This document shows positions 22,301 to 39,268 of a stretch of 47,453 bases of DNA, piece after piece. Within the stretch, counting starts at the first letter, position 1. Each line of letters starts with the position of its first letter. Origin of the DNA: Candidatus Saccharibacteria bacterium RIFCSPHIGHO2_12_FULL_47_16b (lineage in GTDB: Bacteria > Patescibacteriota > Saccharimonadia > Saccharimonadales > UBA10212). Position numbers and translations under genes: made by a program. The notes beneath the pieces were generated by a model. The model was not told the DNA's origin. It saw only the letters and a list, made by a program, of their open reading frames with translations, and did no database searches. The stretch spans positions 1 through 47,453 of the forward strand of contig MGCU01000026.1 in the NCBI GenBank assembly GCA_001790525.1. The letters are read 5' to 3'.

Positions 22301-23395
22301 ATGAAGGTTCTAACAATTTTAGGTACCCGGCCGGAGTTAATAAGACTTAGTCTAATTATCAAAAAGCTGGACAAACTTTGTGATCAAGTTTTAGTCCACA
22401 CCGGCCAGAATTTCGACCCGAACTTAAACGATGTTTTTATTGAGCAGCTGGGCATCCGTAAAATGGATTATTATCTTGATGCCAAAGGCAATTTTGGCCA
22501 ACAAGCTGGTACGATTTTATCGAAACTGGAAGAGATTATTCCCAAAGAGAAACCAGACGCCTTTTTGGTGTTAGGTGATACTAACAGCAGCCTAGGTGCG
22601 ATTATGGCCAAACGCCTCGGCGTGCGGGTCTTTCATATGGAGGCCGGCAACCGTTGCTTCGATGATCGGGTACCCGAAGAAAACAACCGCCGCATCATTG
22701 ATAGCCAAAGCGACATTTTATTGACTTACTCTAACCGCAGCCGGCAAATGCTCACCCGTGAGGGTTACGAAGAAAACCGCGTTCATGTTAGCGGCAATCC
22801 GATTTTTGAAGTTATGAAGCACTTCGAACCGCAGATTGATGCCAGCGACATCATGCAGAAGCTGAAAGTAGAGAAGGGTAAATTCTTTTTGATGACACTA
22901 CATCGGGCCGAAAATGTTGATCCGGAAGATCGTTTAGCTAAATTCGTCGAGGCCTTTAATAAACTCCATGACCAATACAAAATGCCGATGATTTGGAGTG
23001 TCCACCCCAAAACTCGTGATCGACTGAAGAGCCACCCTAAACTAAAGGTTCGCGAGGGAATCGTAGTTTCTGTACCGCTTGGCTTTTTCGAATTTCAAAA
23101 GTTACAAAAGAATGCATTTTGCGTTTTAAGCGACAGCGGTACAGCTCAGGAAGAGTGCGCCATTCTTGGTGTGCCGGTTGTCACCACCCGCGATGTAACT
23201 GAACGCCATGAAACCTTTGAATCAGGCAGCAACTTCATTTCTGGAGCAGAGCCCGAAGATATAATCCGGGGCGTCAAAGTCGTAACCGAAAGTGAGAATA
23301 ACTGGAACCCGCCGCCCGAATATTTAGTCCCGAACGTTAGCGATATCGTCATTCGTATCGTCCTAAGTTATTGGCCCCCCGCCTCACCGTTCTAA
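22301..23395 (+). CDS. UDP-N-acetylglucosamine 2-epimerase, FnlC/WbjD-like
   Basis: This 364-residue GT-B-like epimerase has LGTRPELIRLS (~6-16), HTGQNFD (~33-39), LGDTNSSLGA (~88-97), FHMEAGNRCFDDRVPEENNRR (~109-128, split-site motif with GNRCFD), HRAENVD (~203-209) and SDSGTAQEE (~274-282). GTRPExIRLS and GNRCFDxRVPEE are closer to FnlC/WbjD/CapG-type enzymes that invert C2 of N-acetyl deoxyhexosamines than to plain WecB. It lies after an SDR, cupin and RmlD-like reductase and near a WbuB-like GT4, which supports a UDP-L-FucNAc or L-QuiNAc route. Reaction specificity is inferred. Confidence 0.85.
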   Translation: MKVLTILGTRPELIRLSLIIKKLDKLCDQVLVHTGQNFDPNLNDVFIEQLGIRKMDYYLDAKGNFGQQAGTILSKLEEIIPKEKPDAFLVLGDTNSSLGAIMAKRLGVRVFHMEAGNRCFDDRVPEENNRRIIDSQSDILLTYSNRSRQMLTREGYEENRVHVSGNPIFEVMKHFEPQIDASDIMQKLKVEKGKFFLMTLHRAENVDPEDRLAKFVEAFNKLHDQYKMPMIWSVHPKTRDRLKSHPKLKVREGIVVSVPLGFFEFQKLQKNAFCVLSDSGTAQEECAILGVPVVTTRDVTERHETFESGSNFISGAEPEDIIRGVKVVTESENNWNPPPEYLVPNVSDIVIRIVLSYWPPASPF

Positions 23396-24494: not shown

Positions 24495-26996
24495 CTAAGG
24501 TGTAAAGCCTGTCAGATTTGTAACGATTTCCTGTATGCCATTGATTCTTGTCAAAGTTGGGTCAAACATGTGAGTTTCAACGCAGCCACTGCCGCCGCAG
24601 CCACCGTGGCCGTTGTTATAAATAACATAGATTAATTGGGTATAGCCGAGGTTATTTCCGCGGCCGACGAATTCACCGGCTACAAATGTACCGGTGGCCG
24701 CGCTGGTGCCGATCAGATCAGTCGGTACCTCATAAACTCGCTTGGCCTGGCCGCCACGGATATCCAATAAATGAACCTCGGTATTGCCATAGGAAACATA
24801 AGCTAACTGCGCATGTCCACGATCCAGAAAATCGCCGGCCACAAATACGCCGTTATTAACTGCGCCGACGTCGGTCGGTAGATCGTAAAAGCCAATCGCA
24901 CTGGTCATGGCCGGATTAAACATATGTATCTCCATGCCGCCATTCCTGCCGCTATACAAAATATAGACTAGCTGGTCGTAGCCGGCGCCTAAAAAATCTC
25001 CGGCCACGAAAGTACCGGTGGCCGAGCTGACGTTTACCAAATTCGTTGGCACATCATAGTAGCCCGGCAGTTTCTGTAAGTTTGGGCTAAAGCGGTGAAC
25101 CTCGACGTTGCCATAGGTTACGTAATTTAAGCTGACCTGACTATCTACACGCGACCATGAAGATACCAACATTCCACTCGCTGGATCGCTGGCGCGCAAA
25201 CCGGTGGCGATATTTGCCCGCCAGCTGGTGTAGCCGGGGTTCCAGACATGGGCTTCAACGCAAGCCGAGCCGGTATTATTCAGCTGAGCATAGGTAAGGT
25301 GGCTTATGTTGGTATTGCCGTGCCGGTAAGCCAGCATCCTTTGACCGCTACCGAGGGAGCCGTTATTGTAGTTTTTAAATACGGGGTATGGGCAGGATAA
25401 GCTATCAATTTTGAGGGCGCTGTAAGCATTCAGTCGGCCGTAGCCATAAAGATCGGTTCGGTTGGCGCCGTTCATACCGGCCGGCTTATCAGCCGAGGCG
25501 GCCAGACCGTCGGCTACCTGCGCTGGCGTGATGCCGGGAAATTGGGCATACATTAACGCCGCTACGCCGCTGACCAGGGGTGTCGACAATGAAGTACCGG
25601 AGGCGGTGCTGGTTGTACTATTACCATTGGCAGCGGCTGGTGCGTTGTCGGCCAAAATTGCCAATCCTGGAGCCATAATATCCAGCTCGGGCCCAAAATT
25701 CGACCAGCTAGTGCGATTGTCGCCACTATCGGTAGCACCGACGGCAATAACGTAAGGTGAGCTGGCAGGATAGCAGACACTGCCCGGGGTGGTTTGAGCT
25801 TCGTTGCCGGCGGCGCCGACAACAGTAACGCCGAGTGATCTGGCATTGGCCAGAGCTGTTTCCAGAGTTGAGCTACTACCCGTGCAAGTTGATAGGGCCA
25901 AACTCAAATTAATAACTTTGGCTCCCTTGGCCGCTGCATAATCAATTGCCGCCACAATATCATCCAAATCGCCAAAGCCGTAGCCATCAAAAATTCTCAA
26001 GTTCATTAACTTGGCATTGATAGCAACACCAGCAATCAGCTGGCCGTTGTTAGTCGCAGCGCCGGCCGTCGAGCTGACCAGTGTGGCATGCCCAAGTGCA
26101 TCGGCTGAACTGTCATTTTTGTTGAGTTGTGACTGGTTGAACGGGTCATCACATGAGTATGGGCCCGGGTCGTTATCATTATCAACATAGCCGCCGCCAC
26201 TGCCGTTAGGACAATTGCTGCCGCCGGCAAAACCGCCCATAAAGTCCCAACCTTGCCAATCATCAATCTTGCCGTTAGCGGGTACGTCATTATCAATGCC
26301 GTCAGTGCGTTGGGCGCAGACTATAGTCGGGTCGGTAGATCCACAGTTCTCGCCAGCGTTGGCCCATTTTTTGGAATCCGGAAAATCCGGCTGGCTACAG
26401 CCTAAAGCGCAATCAGTGCCAAATGTCTGGCTAAATAAAATACCGCTGTCGATTACGGCGATAGTAATTGAGTTAGAGCCTTGAGAAACGTCCCAAGCCG
26501 CCGGCGCAGAAATTTGCGGCAAAGCCCATTGCTCAGGGTAACGGGGATCATTGGGTGTAAAAACCGGCCGAAAAATTAGATTCTTTTCGGTTTTCGTGCC
26601 GGGCAGATTTTGAGCCATTTGCTTAACGGCCGGATTGTCAGCGGCTTCAGCCAGAGTTAGCAAAGTTCGGCCGTCACTTAAGCTGGTTGATTCAATAATT
26701 TGTAAACTGTGGTCGGCTGCGTATTTCTCAACTGCGGGCTTATCTTTGGTTTCGACTACTGTCTGACCAAAACGGCTTAATTGGGCGGCGGTATTACTAT
26801 CTTCGGGATTTGTCAATCTGACGGGCGAACCTCTGTCGGAGTCTTCCGCTATTGATGCCGAGGTGTTGGTTGGTTGTGTCTGACTGCTGTCACCATAATC
26901 GGGTGATGTCGTCGGCTGATGCCAATTCAATCTGAAAAAAGCAGCTGCTACGGCCGCCAGCATAATTAACAAAACCAGTAGTTTTCGGCTCTTCAT
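24495..26996 (-). CDS. Secreted subtilisin-like serine protease (S8) with C-terminal repeat domain
   Basis: This 833-residue protein has an N-terminal signal or anchor (~5-21), a propeptide-like region (~70-150) and a complete S8 catalytic domain: Asp183 in IAVIDSGI, His303 in GHATLVS, the oxyanion Asn398 in GAAGNEA and Ser469 in SGTSLSTP. A large Asp/Asn/Gly-rich insertion (~195-300) separates Asp and His and could bind calcium. Residues ~545-833 are beta-rich repeats (HVWNPGYTSWRANIATG, VAGDFLGAGYDQLVYI) like those of the secreted protein at 13553-15325. It is probably active outside the cell, perhaps in processing or feeding. The substrate is unknown. Confidence 0.92.
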   Translation of the reverse strand: MKSRKLLVLLIMLAAVAAAFFRLNWHQPTTSPDYGDSSQTQPTNTSASIAEDSDRGSPVRLTNPEDSNTAAQLSRFGQTVVETKDKPAVEKYAADHSLQIIESTSLSDGRTLLTLAEAADNPAVKQMAQNLPGTKTEKNLIFRPVFTPNDPRYPEQWALPQISAPAAWDVSQGSNSITIAVIDSGILFSQTFGTDCALGCSQPDFPDSKKWANAGENCGSTDPTIVCAQRTDGIDNDVPANGKIDDWQGWDFMGGFAGGSNCPNGSGGGYVDNDNDPGPYSCDDPFNQSQLNKNDSSADALGHATLVSSTAGAATNNGQLIAGVAINAKLMNLRIFDGYGFGDLDDIVAAIDYAAAKGAKVINLSLALSTCTGSSSTLETALANARSLGVTVVGAAGNEAQTTPGSVCYPASSPYVIAVGATDSGDNRTSWSNFGPELDIMAPGLAILADNAPAAANGNSTTSTASGTSLSTPLVSGVAALMYAQFPGITPAQVADGLAASADKPAGMNGANRTDLYGYGRLNAYSALKIDSLSCPYPVFKNYNNGSLGSGQRMLAYRHGNTNISHLTYAQLNNTGSACVEAHVWNPGYTSWRANIATGLRASDPASGMLVSSWSRVDSQVSLNYVTYGNVEVHRFSPNLQKLPGYYDVPTNLVNVSSATGTFVAGDFLGAGYDQLVYILYSGRNGGMEIHMFNPAMTSAIGFYDLPTDVGAVNNGVFVAGDFLDRGHAQLAYVSYGNTEVHLLDIRGGQAKRVYEVPTDLIGTSAATGTFVAGEFVGRGNNLGYTQLIYVIYNNGHGGCGGSGCVETHMFDPTLTRINGIQEIVTNLTGFTP

Positions 26997-27055: not shown

Positions 27056-28228
27056 ATGGCCAGAGTCAAGTTATCTGAATTTCGGGCCAAGAAACTGCTT
27101 GCTGACAAGCTAGGCTTTAGCTATACGGGAATTTCTATCGATGCCGAAGACAAGGAATTAAGCAGACAAATCAACCAACTGTCTGATGGAAAATACGTCG
27201 TTAAAGTTGATCAAGCGACCAAAAAACGCAACCAACTGGGATTGGTTAAATTAAATCGGAGCAGGAATCAAATTATTTCTGACGTTACCGAAATGTCCAA
27301 AAAGGGCTATCGCTATTTTCTGGCTGAACCGATGATCGAACACGATCCAAAAGACGAGCAATTTCTAGCTCTGGTGCGCACTGAAGGGGGGATAGAAATC
27401 CAGTACTCCGAAAAGGGCGGTGTGGGTATTGAAGGACACGCCGATTCGTTACAACGGATGATTTATCTGATGGGGAAACCAAAGGCCATAGGCGCCTTAT
27501 CGACTGAAAATCTTGAGAAGATAATCAGGCTATTCAATTCAGAGCATATGGTTTATTTAGAAATTAACCCTTTGCTTATCGAAGACGGTAAATTTACTCC
27601 CCTTGATGCAGCTGTTGAGGTTGACTCAACTGCCGAATTGGCGGTTCAAGGTGCTTGGACAAGCCAAGATTTTCGCTCTTCTAGACTTGAAAAAACCGCC
27701 AGCGAAAAGATGGTTGAGGATCTTCAAGCAGTTAGTGTTTCGGCCTTATCGCTGCGAGTTATGAATCCCAACGGCCAGATTTTACTGATGCTATCTGGCG
27801 GTGGAGCTAGTTTGGTAATAGCCGATGAATTCGATGCCCATGGCTTGAGCGACGAGTTGATTAACTATGGTGAATATAGCGGTGCACCCAATGAGGATGA
27901 GCTTTACCAATACTCACTGGCCTTAATTAAGTTGCTAAAAAGTGGCCAAGCTAAAAAGAAAATCATTGTCATTGCCGGCGGCGTAGCCAACTTTACCGAT
28001 ATTGCTGTGACTTTCCGCGGCATCATCCGGGCTTTTGATAAGGAGAAAAAGTACCTAAAAGATAACAAGGTGGGTGTGTTTGTCCGCCGCGGCGGACCTA
28101 ACCAGCAAAAGGGTTTGGCCATGATGGAGGACTGCTTGACTAAGATCGGACTAGCTCATAAAGTTCACGGCCCGGATATTTCACTGGCTAAGCTGGTTAA
28201 AGAAGTGGCGGAAGAGGTTAAAGCATGA
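27056..28228 (+). CDS. aclB: ATP-citrate lyase, small (ATP-grasp/citrate-binding) subunit
   Basis: This 390-residue protein corresponds to the N-terminal third of animal ATP-citrate lyase and to AclB of green sulfur bacteria. An ATP-grasp part (~1-215) contains KVDQATKKRNQLGLV and YLEINPLLIEDG; the citrate-binding part (~230-390) contains LSGGGASLVIADEFD, NYGEYSGAPNEDELYQY (~270-286) and FVRRGGPNQQKG. NYGEYSGAP and VRRGGPN are diagnostic of the lyase rather than succinyl-CoA synthetase. With the large subunit it turns citrate, ATP and CoA into oxaloacetate, acetyl-CoA, ADP and phosphate in the cytoplasm. It is intact. A TATAAT box 9 nt before the ATG suggests a leaderless start. Confidence 0.95.
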   Translation: MARVKLSEFRAKKLLADKLGFSYTGISIDAEDKELSRQINQLSDGKYVVKVDQATKKRNQLGLVKLNRSRNQIISDVTEMSKKGYRYFLAEPMIEHDPKDEQFLALVRTEGGIEIQYSEKGGVGIEGHADSLQRMIYLMGKPKAIGALSTENLEKIIRLFNSEHMVYLEINPLLIEDGKFTPLDAAVEVDSTAELAVQGAWTSQDFRSSRLEKTASEKMVEDLQAVSVSALSLRVMNPNGQILLMLSGGGASLVIADEFDAHGLSDELINYGEYSGAPNEDELYQYSLALIKLLKSGQAKKKIIVIAGGVANFTDIAVTFRGIIRAFDKEKKYLKDNKVGVFVRRGGPNQQKGLAMMEDCLTKIGLAHKVHGPDISLAKLVKEVAEEVKA

Positions 28229-28231
28229 ACA

Positions 28232-28345
28232 AGTTCATGCAATTTTCAGTTCACAATTCACATTTACCAATTAAGTATCATTTATCATTTTACAATTGGC
28301 TAATGGCCAATAATTTGGCTAATGGTAAGTGGCAAATGGATGATG
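28232..28345. repeat. Tandem array between the two ATP-citrate lyase genes
   Basis: AT-rich units such as TTCACAATTCACATTTACC and ATCATTTATCATTTTACA are followed by partly complementary GGCTAATGGCCAATAA and GGCTAATGGTAAGTGG. It separates aclB from aclA and ends just before GCCGGAGGC, which holds the aclA ribosome site. Confidence 0.55.
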
Positions 28346-28361
28346 TTGCCGGAGGCGATTT

Positions 28362-30137
28362 ATGAAAAACTTTTCAGAAATTACCGATCCGGCGATTATT
28401 GTTTTTGGCAATCATCTTGCCACTATCCAATCAATGCTTGATTATGATTATCTGGTTGGCCGGGAAGCACCATCAGTTAAAGCGGTGGTTGGTGTCCAGC
28501 AAAAAGTCTGCCGCTATTTTTTTGGCAATCGGGAGATTTTGATTAAGGGCTATCAGGAACTGGCTGATATACCTAAAGCTATACGAAAAGAAGTTGAGCT
28601 AGTTGGTGTCATGCAGTCGGCTCGTCGAGTGTTGACTGGCATCGAGCAATCGATTAGCCAACTGCCAAAGTTAAAAGCGGCTTTTGTTTTTGCCGAAAAT
28701 GTAACAGAGCAGGATGCGCTCAAACTTCGTGAAATTTCGACAAAGGCCAGAATTATAGTTTTGGGTCCAGCTAGTGTCGGAGTACTGGTCGGCGGCGGCT
28801 GGAAGCTTGGTGCGATTGGCGGTATTACGGCCACGCAGCTCAAAGATTCCGGTACGTTAATACCGGGCGATACAGTTGTGGTCTCGACCTCCGGCGGGAT
28901 TGTCAATGAAATTATCAACCGGGTAACTCACTCTGGTGGTAGGCTCCGCTATGGCGTGGCTATCGGCGGCGATTTATGGCCAGCCACCAAACCGTATGAA
29001 ATTTTTGAGATGGCGCTAGATGATCCTAATGTAAAAACCATAGTTTATTTTGGTGAGCTCGGTGGCCATGATGAAGAAAAAGTGGCCGAAATTTACGCTC
29101 AAGCCAAGACCAAAAAAATTGCCATTGCCTACATAGCCGGCAGTATTTCTGACCATTTCGAGACGCCGCAGCAATTTGGCCACGCTAAAGCCATGGCCCA
29201 AACCGAAACCGAATCGGCAGCCTACAAAAAGAAAATCCTGTCGAATGCCGGCGTTCAGGTAGCTAGCGGCTTTGCCGATTTTGAGCAGTTGATAAATAAA
29301 TTTGTTAGCAAAACGCAGCATGAGCAATCTATAATTAAGGAGATTAAGGAGCCCAGAATGAGCGCATTATTTGTCGATAATATTTCTAAAGAAGGTGATG
29401 ATGGTGTGGTCAGAATCCTGGGTGAGGATATCTTAGCTTTTACCAAAGACCGCTCGCTGTCCGAGACTGCTTTAGCTATGTTTACCGGCCGCAAAAAAAG
29501 CTCCGAGCAGCTTAAGGAATTTTTTGATGTGGTAGTCAAACTGCTGGTTGATCACGGCCCGCAAGTTTCCGGCGCGGTTAATACGATGATTACGGCTAGG
29601 GCCGGCAATGAGTTGCCGGCGGCTCTGGCATCGGGGCTACTGACAATCGGCCCGCGCTTTGGCGGCGCCATTGACCAAGCCGCCCAGAACTGGTTTAAGG
29701 CGGTTAATGACGGTGAGAAGGCCTACGATTTTGTGGAGCGGTTTGCCAAGAATAAGATCTATATACCCGGCATTGGCCACCGTAAATATCGAGTCGACAA
29801 CCCGGATCCGCGGGTACAGACGCTTCTAAAAAATTTTGATCAAGGCGGCCAATACACCAAGTTTGCTAAAGAAATCGCCAAAGTCACCGCGGCGAAAAAA
29901 GCCAATTTGATACTGAATGTTGACGGCGCCACCGCCTGCTTGCTGTTGGATATTTTGGAAGGCGACGAGAAGTTAAACAAAAATCAAATCAATGAAGTTT
30001 TGGACAGCGGTTTTTGTAACGCCCTGTTCGTCTTTGCCCGCTCGGTCGGTTTTATTGCTCACTATCTCGAGCAGAAGCGCTTGGATGAAGGGCTGTTCCG
30101 TCTGCCCGACGGCATGGTCATTTCCGAAGAGACCTAA
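28362..30137 (+). CDS. aclA: ATP-citrate lyase, large (CoA-ligase plus citrate-synthase-like) subunit
   Basis: This 591-residue protein has a CoA-binding/ligase part (~1-320) with LDYDYLVGREAPS, GPASVGVLVGG, VSTSGGIVNE and YGVAIGGD, and the histidine loop QFGHAKAMAQ with His274, which is phosphorylated in the family. A citrate-synthase-like part (~340-591) has GIGHR (His473), NLILNVDG (Asp521) and GFIAHYLEQKRL. This fused layout is that of ATP-citrate lyase, not of separate citryl-CoA synthetase and lyase. The histidine loop reads GHAKA where the family norm is GHAGA. GGAGGCGATTT gives a good ribosome site. It sits after aclB with a 133-bp repeat-filled gap. Confidence 0.95.
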   Translation: MKNFSEITDPAIIVFGNHLATIQSMLDYDYLVGREAPSVKAVVGVQQKVCRYFFGNREILIKGYQELADIPKAIRKEVELVGVMQSARRVLTGIEQSISQLPKLKAAFVFAENVTEQDALKLREISTKARIIVLGPASVGVLVGGGWKLGAIGGITATQLKDSGTLIPGDTVVVSTSGGIVNEIINRVTHSGGRLRYGVAIGGDLWPATKPYEIFEMALDDPNVKTIVYFGELGGHDEEKVAEIYAQAKTKKIAIAYIAGSISDHFETPQQFGHAKAMAQTETESAAYKKKILSNAGVQVASGFADFEQLINKFVSKTQHEQSIIKEIKEPRMSALFVDNISKEGDDGVVRILGEDILAFTKDRSLSETALAMFTGRKKSSEQLKEFFDVVVKLLVDHGPQVSGAVNTMITARAGNELPAALASGLLTIGPRFGGAIDQAAQNWFKAVNDGEKAYDFVERFAKNKIYIPGIGHRKYRVDNPDPRVQTLLKNFDQGGQYTKFAKEIAKVTAAKKANLILNVDGATACLLLDILEGDEKLNKNQINEVLDSGFCNALFVFARSVGFIAHYLEQKRLDEGLFRLPDGMVISEET

Positions 30138-36287: not shown

Positions 36288-37145
36288 ATGGGCCGTATGT
36301 TGCAAGATGAGCTTGACGGCTTATCCAAGAAAATTGCCGGCTTTCTTGAACCGGCCGAGATCAGTGACGAGAAGTGGCGTCAGTTCACCGCCAATTCTGT
36401 TGTGGCTTTGATGGCGGGTGGCGAGAGCAGCCGTTACGCCGCAGTCCTTCATGGTCAAAAGGTTAACAAGAACGCCCATGAGTTGCCTAACGGTGACACC
36501 ATGATTGAAATGGCCATTAGAATGTACCGCGATGCCGGTATCAAAAAGTTCGTGGCTCTTGTGTATCACAATGCTCATAGCATTGAAGATCGAATCGGCG
36601 ATGGTTCCGGTTTGGGGGTGGAAATCATTTACAGTCACGATCCCGAAAAGCCGGTCGGCAAGGGTGGAGCGGTACACAATGCACTAGTTAATGGCTCGAT
36701 TCCGGATGATTGTAATTTGCTAGTTGTTAATCCCGACGATGTGATTCTGGATTTTCCAGAAGTTGTTCGCTTTATTGTAAGCGCTCATCTTGAAGGCCAA
36801 TCCAAAGGCATGCTGGCGACGGTCGCTTTGGCGCCAGGCCAAGCCTATCCTGGAACCGGCATGATGGTAGCTGATAATCAGGTTGTGGATACCCAGATGT
36901 ACCCAATAATTCCGGTGCCACTGCATTTTGGGGCTACAGTTTTTTCACCAGAGATATATCCGCGGTTCAGTAAACTGTTTCCGCTAACCGAAAAGAATGA
37001 TTTCGAGCAGGTGCTATTTCCTATCTTAGCCAAAGAGAAGAAGCTGTGGTCAGCCGGCCTGACACGTGGTACCTGGATAGCCGTTAACGACCTTAAATCA
37101 TATAAACAACTTTGCCAAGCCCTGCCGCCAAAACCAGGGGCCTAA
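36288..37145 (+). CDS. Sugar-1-phosphate nucleotidyltransferase, GalU-like
   Basis: This 285-residue enzyme has a modified nucleotidyltransferase signature ALMAGGESSRYAAVLHGQK (~35-53) in place of GxGTRxxPxTK, an NPDDVILDFPEV metal-site segment (~147-158), VGKGGAVHNAL (~123-133, as in UTP-dependent enzymes) and TWIAVNDLKSYKQL at the C-terminus. It probably forms a UDP- or other nucleotide sugar from a hexose 1-phosphate. It diverges from the rhamnose operon, and UDP-glucose would feed GalE. The atypical signature makes nucleotide choice uncertain. Confidence 0.8.
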   Translation: MGRMLQDELDGLSKKIAGFLEPAEISDEKWRQFTANSVVALMAGGESSRYAAVLHGQKVNKNAHELPNGDTMIEMAIRMYRDAGIKKFVALVYHNAHSIEDRIGDGSGLGVEIIYSHDPEKPVGKGGAVHNALVNGSIPDDCNLLVVNPDDVILDFPEVVRFIVSAHLEGQSKGMLATVALAPGQAYPGTGMMVADNQVVDTQMYPIIPVPLHFGATVFSPEIYPRFSKLFPLTEKNDFEQVLFPILAKEKKLWSAGLTRGTWIAVNDLKSYKQLCQALPPKPGA

Positions 37146-37441: not shown

Positions 37442-39268
37442 CTATTCTACGGTGACGGACTTGGCTAGATTTCGCGGCCGATCGACGTTTTTACCTAGCT
37501 TGATGGCCGCATAATAGGCAAACAGCTGAATAACGATGGCAACTAAAACTGGATTTAGTTGCTCGATGGTTTTAGGGATGTAAATCACATCATCAACCAG
37601 TTTTTTAATTTGCCGGTTGTCTTCAGTCGCTACGGCTACAATTGGACCACCGCGAGCTTTGATTTCGGAAATGTTGGAATAGACCTTTTCTAGCACTTGG
37701 CAGTCCGGCGCAATTGCAAAAGTGGCAAAGTTTTTATCAATCATGGCCAGCGGCCCATGTTTCATCTCGCCAGCGGCATAGCCTTCGGCGTGTATGTAGG
37801 TTATTTCCTTAAGTTTTAGGGCGCCTTCTAAAGCGCAGGGGTAGCCGTAACGCCGGCCAATATAAAGGAAGTTACTAAATCGGGTGTACTTTTCGGCAAT
37901 TTGCCGGATTTTATCTACCTGTGTTAGCAGCTGCTCGGCTTTTTTAGGCAGGCTATCAAGCTCTTGTAAAAATCTTTTCCTATCCCGAATTTTGCCATTG
38001 CCAAAGTGCAGGCCGATTTCGGCCAGTACGCAAACTTGGGCGATGAAGGCTTTGGTTGAAGCAACAGCTCTTTCCGGGCCGGCGTGGCAGTAAACCCCGG
38101 CATCAGTCATGCGGGCGACAGTTGAGCCAACAGCGTTGACGATGCCAAGACGTAACATGTTGCGTCCCTCAACCTTTTTAAGCGCCGCAATCGTATCGGC
38201 CGTTTCACCAGATTGGGAAATGGCTAGCACTGCCGTGCTGGGCGAAAATGGCTCAAACCGGTATTTGAACTCGGAAGCTAACTGAACTTCAACCGGAATG
38301 TGGGCTAACTCCTCAATCAAGTATTCGCCAACTAGGCCGGCATAATAAGAGGTGCCGCAAGCCACGATAATAAGCCTCTGAACCTCCTTTAATTTGTCCT
38401 TGACGTCAACTAGGCCACCGAGTTTGACAGTGCCACTTTTTGGACGAATTCGACCAAGGGTGGCTAGCTTGATGGTTTGTGGAGCTTCAAAAATTTCTTT
38501 TAGCATAAAGTTGGGGAAGTCATCTAAGGCGGCGTGCTCCAAATCAAAGTCCAGCTCTTCGGCAGTTTTTTCAACCACGGCCGCTCGCTTGAAATTTCTA
38601 ATTTTGTAACCTTTTTTAGATATAATCGCTAACTCGTAGTCCTCAAGATAAATCACCTTTTTAGTGTGTTCCATAATGGCTGACGGGTCAGAAGCCAGGA
38701 TAAATTCATCTTCGCCAACGCCAAGCACCAGTGGACTAGACAAGCGAGCGGCGAATAATTGTCCCAGTGCCAGCGAACTTATGGCCACAATCGAAAAAGC
38801 GCCTTCGAGTTCGCTAACTGCTTTTTCGAAGGCGTCTTCAAACGAGCCACTTTGCTTAAAGTGATATTCGATTAGGTGGGGCACAACCTCGGTATCAGTT
38901 TCGGTAGCAAACTGATAACCAAGCTCAATCAGACGGTTTTTAATCACTTGGAAATTTTCAATGATGCCGTTATGGACGACCATAATGGTCTTATCGTGAT
39001 TGAAGTGGGGATGGGCGTTAACGGTAGTTGGTGCCCCGTGTGTTGCCCAGCGGGTGTGACCCATCGCCAGATGCGGTGTAGCTTTTTCTTTGTCAACCAG
39101 CTTTTCAATTGTCTCAACCCGGCCAACCCGTTTGATAACTGTGCAGCTATCACTATTTATATAAGCCACACCGGCCGAATCATAGCCGCGATACTCAAGC
39201 GCCTTTAAACCGTCGACAACCGGCCCGAGGGCGTTCTTATTACCTAAATAACCGACAATGCCGCACAT
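37442..39268 (-). CDS. glmS: Glutamine-fructose-6-phosphate aminotransferase
   Basis: This 608-residue enzyme makes glucosamine 6-phosphate, the entry to UDP-GlcNAc. It has the nucleophile Cys2 in MCGIVGYLG, the glutaminase motifs HTRWATHG (~71-78) and HNGIIENF (~98-105), two SIS domains with ACGTSYYAG and ISQSGETADT, and the canonical C-terminus PRNLAKSVTVE. Length is normal. It is the third gene of a minus-strand unit with a polyprenyl-phosphate sugar transferase and a GT4, so amino-sugar supply is tied to glycan assembly. The 3' side carries a dispersed repeat. No glmS-ribozyme-like leader is possible in the 7-nt gap before it. Confidence 0.97.
   Translation of the reverse strand: MCGIVGYLGNKNALGPVVDGLKALEYRGYDSAGVAYINSDSCTVIKRVGRVETIEKLVDKEKATPHLAMGHTRWATHGAPTTVNAHPHFNHDKTIMVVHNGIIENFQVIKNRLIELGYQFATETDTEVVPHLIEYHFKQSGSFEDAFEKAVSELEGAFSIVAISSLALGQLFAARLSSPLVLGVGEDEFILASDPSAIMEHTKKVIYLEDYELAIISKKGYKIRNFKRAAVVEKTAEELDFDLEHAALDDFPNFMLKEIFEAPQTIKLATLGRIRPKSGTVKLGGLVDVKDKLKEVQRLIIVACGTSYYAGLVGEYLIEELAHIPVEVQLASEFKYRFEPFSPSTAVLAISQSGETADTIAALKKVEGRNMLRLGIVNAVGSTVARMTDAGVYCHAGPERAVASTKAFIAQVCVLAEIGLHFGNGKIRDRKRFLQELDSLPKKAEQLLTQVDKIRQIAEKYTRFSNFLYIGRRYGYPCALEGALKLKEITYIHAEGYAAGEMKHGPLAMIDKNFATFAIAPDCQVLEKVYSNISEIKARGGPIVAVATEDNRQIKKLVDDVIYIPKTIEQLNPVLVAIVIQLFAYYAAIKLGKNVDRPRNLAKSVTVE

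Follow-up and report, generated by a model that had tools for sequence, protein, structure and literature searches.

ATP-citrate lyase genes in a Saccharibacteria genome and their proposed role in the acetylation of envelope amino sugars

Introduction

Bacterial ATP-citrate lyase (ACL) is known chiefly as an enzyme of the reductive TCA (rTCA) cycle. The eukaryotic enzyme, ACLY, is a single chain, and its citrate is made in mitochondria. ACL has been reported in a Gracilibacterium (PMC6851277) and mentioned earlier in Saccharimonadia (PMC12577380), and in Patescibacteria it has been proposed as a step of citrate cross-feeding (PMC13014828); in the passages of these papers that deal with ACL, citrate is thought to come from outside. 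According to PMC10768705, the cultured Saccharibacterium TM7x cannot make UDP-GlcNAc and may receive it from its host. Here, we describe an ACL gene pair in a Saccharibacteria genome and compare its setting with that in relatives.

Results

The window analysed in this study is the whole of contig C26 (47,453 bp) of a 29-contig Saccharibacteria (CPR) genome with a size of 793,886 bp and an estimated completeness of 95%. The source bacterium is probably host-dependent. The ACL pair stands alone on the + strand and is flanked by a subtilase gene and rml genes, both on the − strand (Table 1). No internal stops were present in the two ORFs. They are separated by 133 bp here; in most relatives, the two genes overlap.

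Table 1. Features of the window discussed in this study.
Feature	Position	Strand	Remarks
UDP-N-acetylglucosamine 2-epimerase family	22301..23395	+	Pfam PF02350, E=1.9e-84
aclB, ATP-citrate lyase small subunit	27056..28228	+	390 aa, ATG start
aclA, ATP-citrate lyase large subunit	28362..30137	+	591 aa, ATG start
Codon of AclA H274 (QFGHAK)	29181..29183	+	Invariant in 12 diverse homologues
Codons of AclA H398 (29553-29555), H473 (29778-29780) and D521 (29922-29924)	29553..29924	+	Citryl-CoA lyase module
Nucleotidyltransferase, candidate for a sugar-nucleotide step	36288..37145	+	PF00483, E=7.5e-10; homologue in genus mate (L089)
glmS, glutamine--fructose-6-phosphate aminotransferase	37442..39268	-	TIGR01135, 744.6 bits vs cut-off 418

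In AclB, Pfam searches assigned residues 5–201 to an ATP-grasp domain (PF24948, ATP-citrate synthase ATP-grasp; E=2.2e-26) and residues 214–383 to a citrate-binding domain (Citrate_bind, PF16114; E=1.3e-51), both over the cut-off. PF16114 also gave weak matches, near 20 bits, in relatives. In AclA, a CoA-ligase part (residues 174–296; Ligase_CoA, PF00549) and a citrate-synthase-homology domain (residues 354–580; Citrate_synt, PF00285) are fused in one ORF. The closest solved structures of AclB and AclA were the two chains of Methanosaeta concilii ACL, 6hxi_A (E=2.1e-53, nearly full length) and 6hxi_B (E=3.9e-91, residues 12–582), respectively. Human ACLY ranked just after them and the bacterial two-subunit ACL next, and succinyl-CoA synthetases and citryl-CoA synthetase/lyase ranked far below the ACLs. 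H274 of AclA is presumably the histidine that becomes phosphorylated, as established for ACL and succinyl-CoA synthetases. H398, H473, and D521 were invariant in 12 diverse homologues, and the stretch that contains them aligns with the NVDG motif of the Methanosaeta enzyme.

Judged by their sequences, the two ORFs encode a true ATP-citrate lyase of the two-subunit type. A succinyl-CoA synthetase was rejected: the scores were 53.6 and 95.5 bits, where the family cut-offs are 370 and 336, and a citrate-synthase domain is present. Separate citryl-CoA synthetase and citryl-CoA lyase enzymes of the Hydrogenobacter type were also rejected, as the lyase domain is fused within AclA and 6hxq and 6hxp scored far under ACL. 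The preliminary description had read the two subunits as an intact ACL from five short diagnostic motifs. Its coordinates are exact, all five motifs were found, and the Pfam domains, the full-length matches to ACL structures, and the conserved catalytic residues confirm the identification.

The genus mate Ca. Saccharibacteria RIFCSPHIGHO2_12_FULL_47_17 (G012, corresponding to L089/L166), an independent assembly, carries an ACL pair beside the same rml genes. Identities between the two pairs are 73% and 84%, the latter for AclA, whose closest homologue is the one in the genus mate. Besides ACL, the two loci share rmlA, rmlD, rmlB, and genes for a phosphohexomutase, a HAD hydrolase, and a nucleotidyltransferase. 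The arrangement is therefore real, and the synteny excludes a chimeric contig. Together with the GC content of the aclB-aclA pair (43–47%), which matches that of the flanks, it also speaks against a recent transfer of ACL.

ACL was found in 3 of the 16 genomes of the family and in 35 of the 393 genomes of the class (about 9%); aclB and aclA are neighbours in each of the 35 loci inspected. Public genomes, when scanned, yielded 80 ACL loci, almost all from CPR, including Saccharibacteria, Levybacteria, Woesebacteria, Roizmanbacteria, Magasanikbacteria, Kaiserbacteria, and Parcubacteria. In the AclA tree, which was built with one outside reference only, Saccharibacteria fell into at least three separate groups inside a CPR-wide clade, and the group of the window's AclA comprised its genus and one further lineage only. 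One member of the class (G018) has a different, archaeal-like ACL. Either old transfers or differential losses inside CPR would fit this tree; because the CPR-wide clade contains several separate Saccharibacteria lineages, old transfers among CPR are probable. The preliminary description had suggested transfer and had called ACL the least expected function in the window. The suggestion of transfer is supported in part, for an old spread within CPR and not for a recent event, given the even GC and the same site in the genus mate. The function is not unique to this genome, as shown by the 35 class genomes, by the CPR-dominated loci of the public scan, and by the earlier reports (PMC12577380 and PMC13014828).

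For the metabolic setting, about 75 E. coli proteins served as phmmer queries against the 939 ORFs predicted on the complete set of contigs. Matches were obtained for GlmS, GlmM, MurA, LdhA, PpsA, and F-ATPase. Among these ORFs, no match was found for aconitase, ICD, MDH, SDH, or succinyl-CoA synthetase; for PDH, PFL, PFOR, Acs, Pta, AckA, citrate lyase, or ACC; or for GlmU, PEPC, PEPCK, or malic enzyme. AclA was the sole match of the citrate-synthase family in the genome, in which no citrate synthase was found, and queries with the Kbl, Tdh, Acs, and Pta sequences from relatives gave no match. Within the limits of homology searches and of a genome that may miss 5%, ACL would be the only recognised acetyl-CoA maker of this bacterium. 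The search of the genome also gave no PF00132 match for a hexapeptide acyltransferase, no citrate importer among CitT/DctA homologues or the ten membrane proteins scanned, and no identified GlcNAc-1-P uridylyltransferase. A further GNAT is encoded at C16:12108-12626.

Among 61 genomes of relatives, POR_N and HMG-CoA synthase were absent and none had a full GlmU (over cut-off). Pta was absent from 28 ACL-positive relatives, one of which had an AMP-binding enzyme. The lack of HMG-CoA synthase in these 61 genomes rejects a mevalonate sink for acetyl-CoA. A fatty-acid sink was rejected as well: this genome encodes a ketosynthase, an enoyl-reductase-like SDR, and a FabD-like protein, but searches for acetyl-CoA carboxylase, FabH, and ACP gave no match.

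The genes next to ACL in relatives often encode acetyl-CoA-dependent transferases or proteins of amino-sugar and cell-wall synthesis. Four genomes of one Saccharibacteria family have the order AclB-AclA-GlmM-GNAT; these genes are separated by at most about 20 bp, and in many cases they overlap by a few bases. GlmS follows ACL after 2–13 bp in four loci (L172, L181, L182, and L188), and MurB follows AclA in several Levybacteria. A GNAT lies a few bases before ACL in one Saccharibacteria genus and in several Parcubacteria, the GNATs beside ACL belonging to at least two families, and an acyltransferase-3 lies directly before aclB in L172, L186, and L234. A first count of adjacency (22/70 vs 3/426) was biased, as its profiles came from the adjacent genes themselves, and Pfam-based counts were used instead. 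In Saccharimonadia, 7 of the 23 genera have a Pfam GNAT no more than about 4 kb from ACL, where 0.68 would be expected from the GNAT numbers of these genomes (Poisson 7e-6, to be taken as a rough guide because the genera are partly dependent). The 32 immediate upstream neighbours of ACL included 4 acyltransferase-3 proteins and at least 4 GNATs; among the proteins three genes away, 2 of 50 were GNATs. The linkage of ACL to such transferases (GNAT, acyltransferase-3) or to amino-sugar and cell-wall genes (GlmS, GlmM, MurB) in many CPR is new.

Some CPR loci have other acetyl-CoA makers (Acs, Tdh-Kbl) or an archaeal-type PEP carboxylase near ACL. Such loci could also be explained by a citrate-making direction of the enzyme.

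In the present genome, a GlmM-GNAT pair lies on contig C28, with the GNAT gene 7 bp downstream of that for GlmM, and the genus mate has such a pair on its contig C5; in both, the pair is unlinked to ACL. The C28 GNAT, encoded at L070:2244-2858, matched no named NCBIfam family. A homologue of it has a predicted GNAT fold (mean pLDDT 90), and its nearest structures were spermidine and other acetyltransferases, with GNA1 not among the nearest 50 listed folds. When this GlmM-linked family was searched for across the 393 class genomes, ACL was present in 8 of the 10 best-matching genomes versus 27 of the 383 others. Counted by genus, the co-occurrence was 5/7 versus 18/146 (p about 9e-4). The GNAT gene was directly behind that of GlmM in 11 of the 12 strongest loci. 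Many ACL-positive genomes are without the GlmM-linked family, and many CPR genomes are without both.

Three ACL-negative genomes with GlmM-GNAT carry other genes upstream of the pair. In G201, a phosphotransacetylase gene ends 1 bp before GlmM and is the sole Pta among 44 genomes; in G306, Tdh, Kbl, and Acs precede the pair on the same strand; in G183, Tdh-Kbl lies upstream with one other gene between. Different acetyl-CoA makers thus take the place of ACL in these genomes.

Discussion

We consider it fairly probable that this ACL turns citrate into acetyl-CoA for the N-acetylation of envelope amino sugars by a GlmU-independent GNAT route. Citrate from outside the cell would be converted with ATP and CoA to acetyl-CoA, oxaloacetate, ADP, and Pi. 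GlmS, encoded in the window, would make GlcN-6-P, which GlmM would turn into GlcN-1-P, and the GNAT encoded downstream of GlmM would make GlcNAc phosphate, which would supply peptidoglycan synthesis as well as the island's UDP-GlcNAc 2-epimerase. GlmS is accordingly proposed as the pathway partner of ACL for the first step to glucosamine phosphate, and the epimerase as a consumer of the acetylated sugar. Oxaloacetate might pass through pyruvate to lactate via LdhA, which is a guess. We counted in favour of this role the lack of another acetyl-CoA maker, the recurrent linkages of ACL, the co-occurrence with GlmM-GNAT, the other acetyl-CoA makers upstream of GlmM in ACL-negative genomes, and the lack of GlmU. 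Counted against it are the separation of ACL from GlmM-GNAT in this genome and the distance of glmS, which is 7 kb from ACL on the opposite strand and outside its operon. Further points against it are the C28 GNAT's lack of a named family and the folds nearest to it, those of spermidine and other acetyltransferases; the many ACL-positive genomes without this GNAT family and the many CPR genomes without both; the failure of the searches to find a citrate importer or a GlcNAc-1-P uridylyltransferase; and the loci with other acetyl-CoA makers or PEP carboxylase beside ACL.

The acetyl-CoA might instead be used for other acetylations, such as the O-acetylation of polysaccharides or the acetylation of proteins, tRNA, or small molecules, with a minor role or none for amino sugars. 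The acyltransferase-3 genes directly before aclB, the variety of GNAT families beside ACL, and the further GNAT on C16 speak for such uses. We regard this as unlikely, because the recurring neighbours GlmM, GlmS, and MurB use no acetyl-CoA themselves and point to amino sugars, and because the GlmM-linked GNAT so regularly stands directly behind GlmM. That ACL is a passenger of a variable polysaccharide island, with no functional tie to its neighbours, would agree with the patchy distribution and the several separate clades of Saccharibacteria AclA; conserved catalytic residues and tight, differently arranged linkages to acetyl-transfer and amino-sugar genes, recurring in separate clades well above chance, make it highly improbable.

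The remaining explanations place ACL in carbon metabolism. A catabolic enzyme would split external citrate and send oxaloacetate to pyruvate and lactate, with acetyl-CoA as a by-product. LdhA is present, and the cross-feeding of citrate to ACL-bearing Patescibacteria has been put forward in the part of PMC13014828 that concerns them, but the reaction costs ATP and the genome search found no Pta, AckA, malate dehydrogenase, PEPCK, malic enzyme, or citrate importer, so that we hold this role to be improbable. It is very improbable that ACL runs in reverse as a citrate synthase, from acetyl-CoA and oxaloacetate. The Acs, Tdh-Kbl, or archaeal-type PEP carboxylase genes near ACL in some other CPR would suit that direction, but homology searches of this genome revealed neither a PEP carboxylase nor a second source of acetyl-CoA, and an aconitase or isocitrate dehydrogenase that could consume the citrate was not found either. 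CO2 fixation by the rTCA cycle, the usual role of bacterial two-subunit ACL, is already contradicted and can hardly apply, as the search of this nearly complete genome gave no further enzyme of that cycle.

Comparison of about a hundred relatives suggests that ACL may serve the acetylation of cell-surface sugars rather than a carbon cycle. More broadly, the chances seem evenly balanced that many CPR have a GlmU-free GlmS-GlmM-GNAT pathway with a dedicated acetyl-CoA maker, a role in which ATP-citrate lyase, phosphotransacetylase, threonine dehydrogenase-Kbl, and acetyl-CoA synthetase replace one another among lineages, and that ACL of CPR chiefly serves to acetylate envelope sugars. A literature search found no paper linking ACL, GlmM, and GNAT in these bacteria, which is no proof that the link has gone unnoticed. 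The preliminary description is thus supported in part. Besides the identity of ACL, its premise that CPR bacteria generally lack a TCA cycle fits this genome, in which no TCA or rTCA cycle was found; citrate synthase, aconitase, and malate dehydrogenase were searched for and gave no match. Its guess of sugar N-acetylation gains support from the GlmM-GNAT pair here and from the recurrent GlmS, GlmM, GNAT, and acyltransferase linkages in relatives, which would be consistent with that use. The citrate import that it assumed is a presumption, as no importer was recognised among CitT/DctA homologues or the ten membrane proteins scanned. A recent transfer was not supported, and the function is not unique to this genome.

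If the proposed role is correct, ACL-positive CPR could acetylate envelope sugars themselves, with their dependence shifted to citrate, and bacterial ACL would gain a biosynthetic role outside the rTCA cycle, as in the eukaryotic cytosol. The role would help to explain envelope synthesis in such bacteria, which lack the usual enzyme, and three small enzymes would allow a direct test of it. The proposed GlmU-independent route contrasts with the statement on TM7x in PMC10768705.

Compared with Methanosaeta concilii ACL (6hxi), bacterial ACL (6hxj), and human ACLY, the enzyme has the same domain order and catalytic residues, and it has two subunits as in 6hxi and 6hxj. Unlike the bacterial ACLs of the rTCA cycle, it occurs where the cycle was not found, and its AclA belongs to a CPR-wide group. 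The proposed acetylation step has the same chemistry as that of GlmU, which was not found in this genome, and of eukaryotic GNA1, which is also a GNAT, namely the acetyl-CoA-dependent acetylation of a glucosamine phosphate. The ACLs of Gracilibacterium (PMC6851277), Saccharimonadia (PMC12577380), and Patescibacteria (PMC13014828) are the same enzyme, likewise in reduced genomes without a TCA cycle; where these papers discuss it, they treat central carbon metabolism or cross-feeding, and amino-sugar acetylation and the GlmM-GNAT link are put forward here. The enzyme thus belongs to a known family in a lineage for which it was already reported, and the genes around it and its homologues suggest an unusual function in biosynthesis. 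In the proposed model, it would resemble eukaryotic cytosolic ACLY in cleaving citrate to supply biosynthetic acetyl-CoA, with two subunits in place of one chain.

Surroundings of aclB and aclA and the spacer between them

The gene directly upstream of aclB, on the opposite strand, encodes a subtilase, and the neighborhood comparison showed no counterpart of it in the corresponding place in the genus mate, Ca. Saccharibacteria RIFCSPHIGHO2_12_FULL_47_17. The AT-rich spacer between aclB and aclA was 133 bp long, and a 7-bp stem-loop was placed at the aclB stop.

Positions of the features in the window and on contig C23 of the same genome
Feature	Position	Strand	Pfam match or region
Subtilase, 833 aa	window 24495-26996	-	PF00082
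Stem-loop	window 28223-28240		
aclB-aclA spacer	window 28229-28361		
FabD-like ORF	C23:60298-61296	-	region C23:58898-64185 (L074, L075)
256-aa ORF	C23:61312-62082	-	region C23:58898-64185 (L074, L075)

Fatty-acid-like genes elsewhere in the genome

In the str operon on C23, the FabD-like ORF and the 256-aa ORF lay between fusA and tuf. On another contig, a ketosynthase gene was clustered with one for an enoyl-reductase-like SDR and with a 335-aa ORF that had no Pfam match (C12:462-3829; L016). Despite this ketosynthase/SDR cluster, acetyl-CoA carboxylase, FabH, and ACP were not found in the genome.

Loci of relatives

At three other CPR loci (L183, L207, and L208), archaeal-type PEP carboxylase (PF14010) was encoded a few genes away from the ATP-citrate lyase. 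In the lyase-less relative G201, two phosphotransacetylase-like genes were arranged in tandem (L154, 8276-10014), the upstream one being broken and containing ambiguous bases.

The aclB and aclA genes overlap in most relatives, whereas they are separated in the window. In G019, AclA was apparently broken into two ORFs of 130 and 441 aa (L108, 8716-10478), either by decay or by a sequencing frameshift. Another class member, G018, had a different, archaeal-like ATP-citrate lyase (L102), which clustered with that of Methanosaeta in the tree, although the two branches are long.
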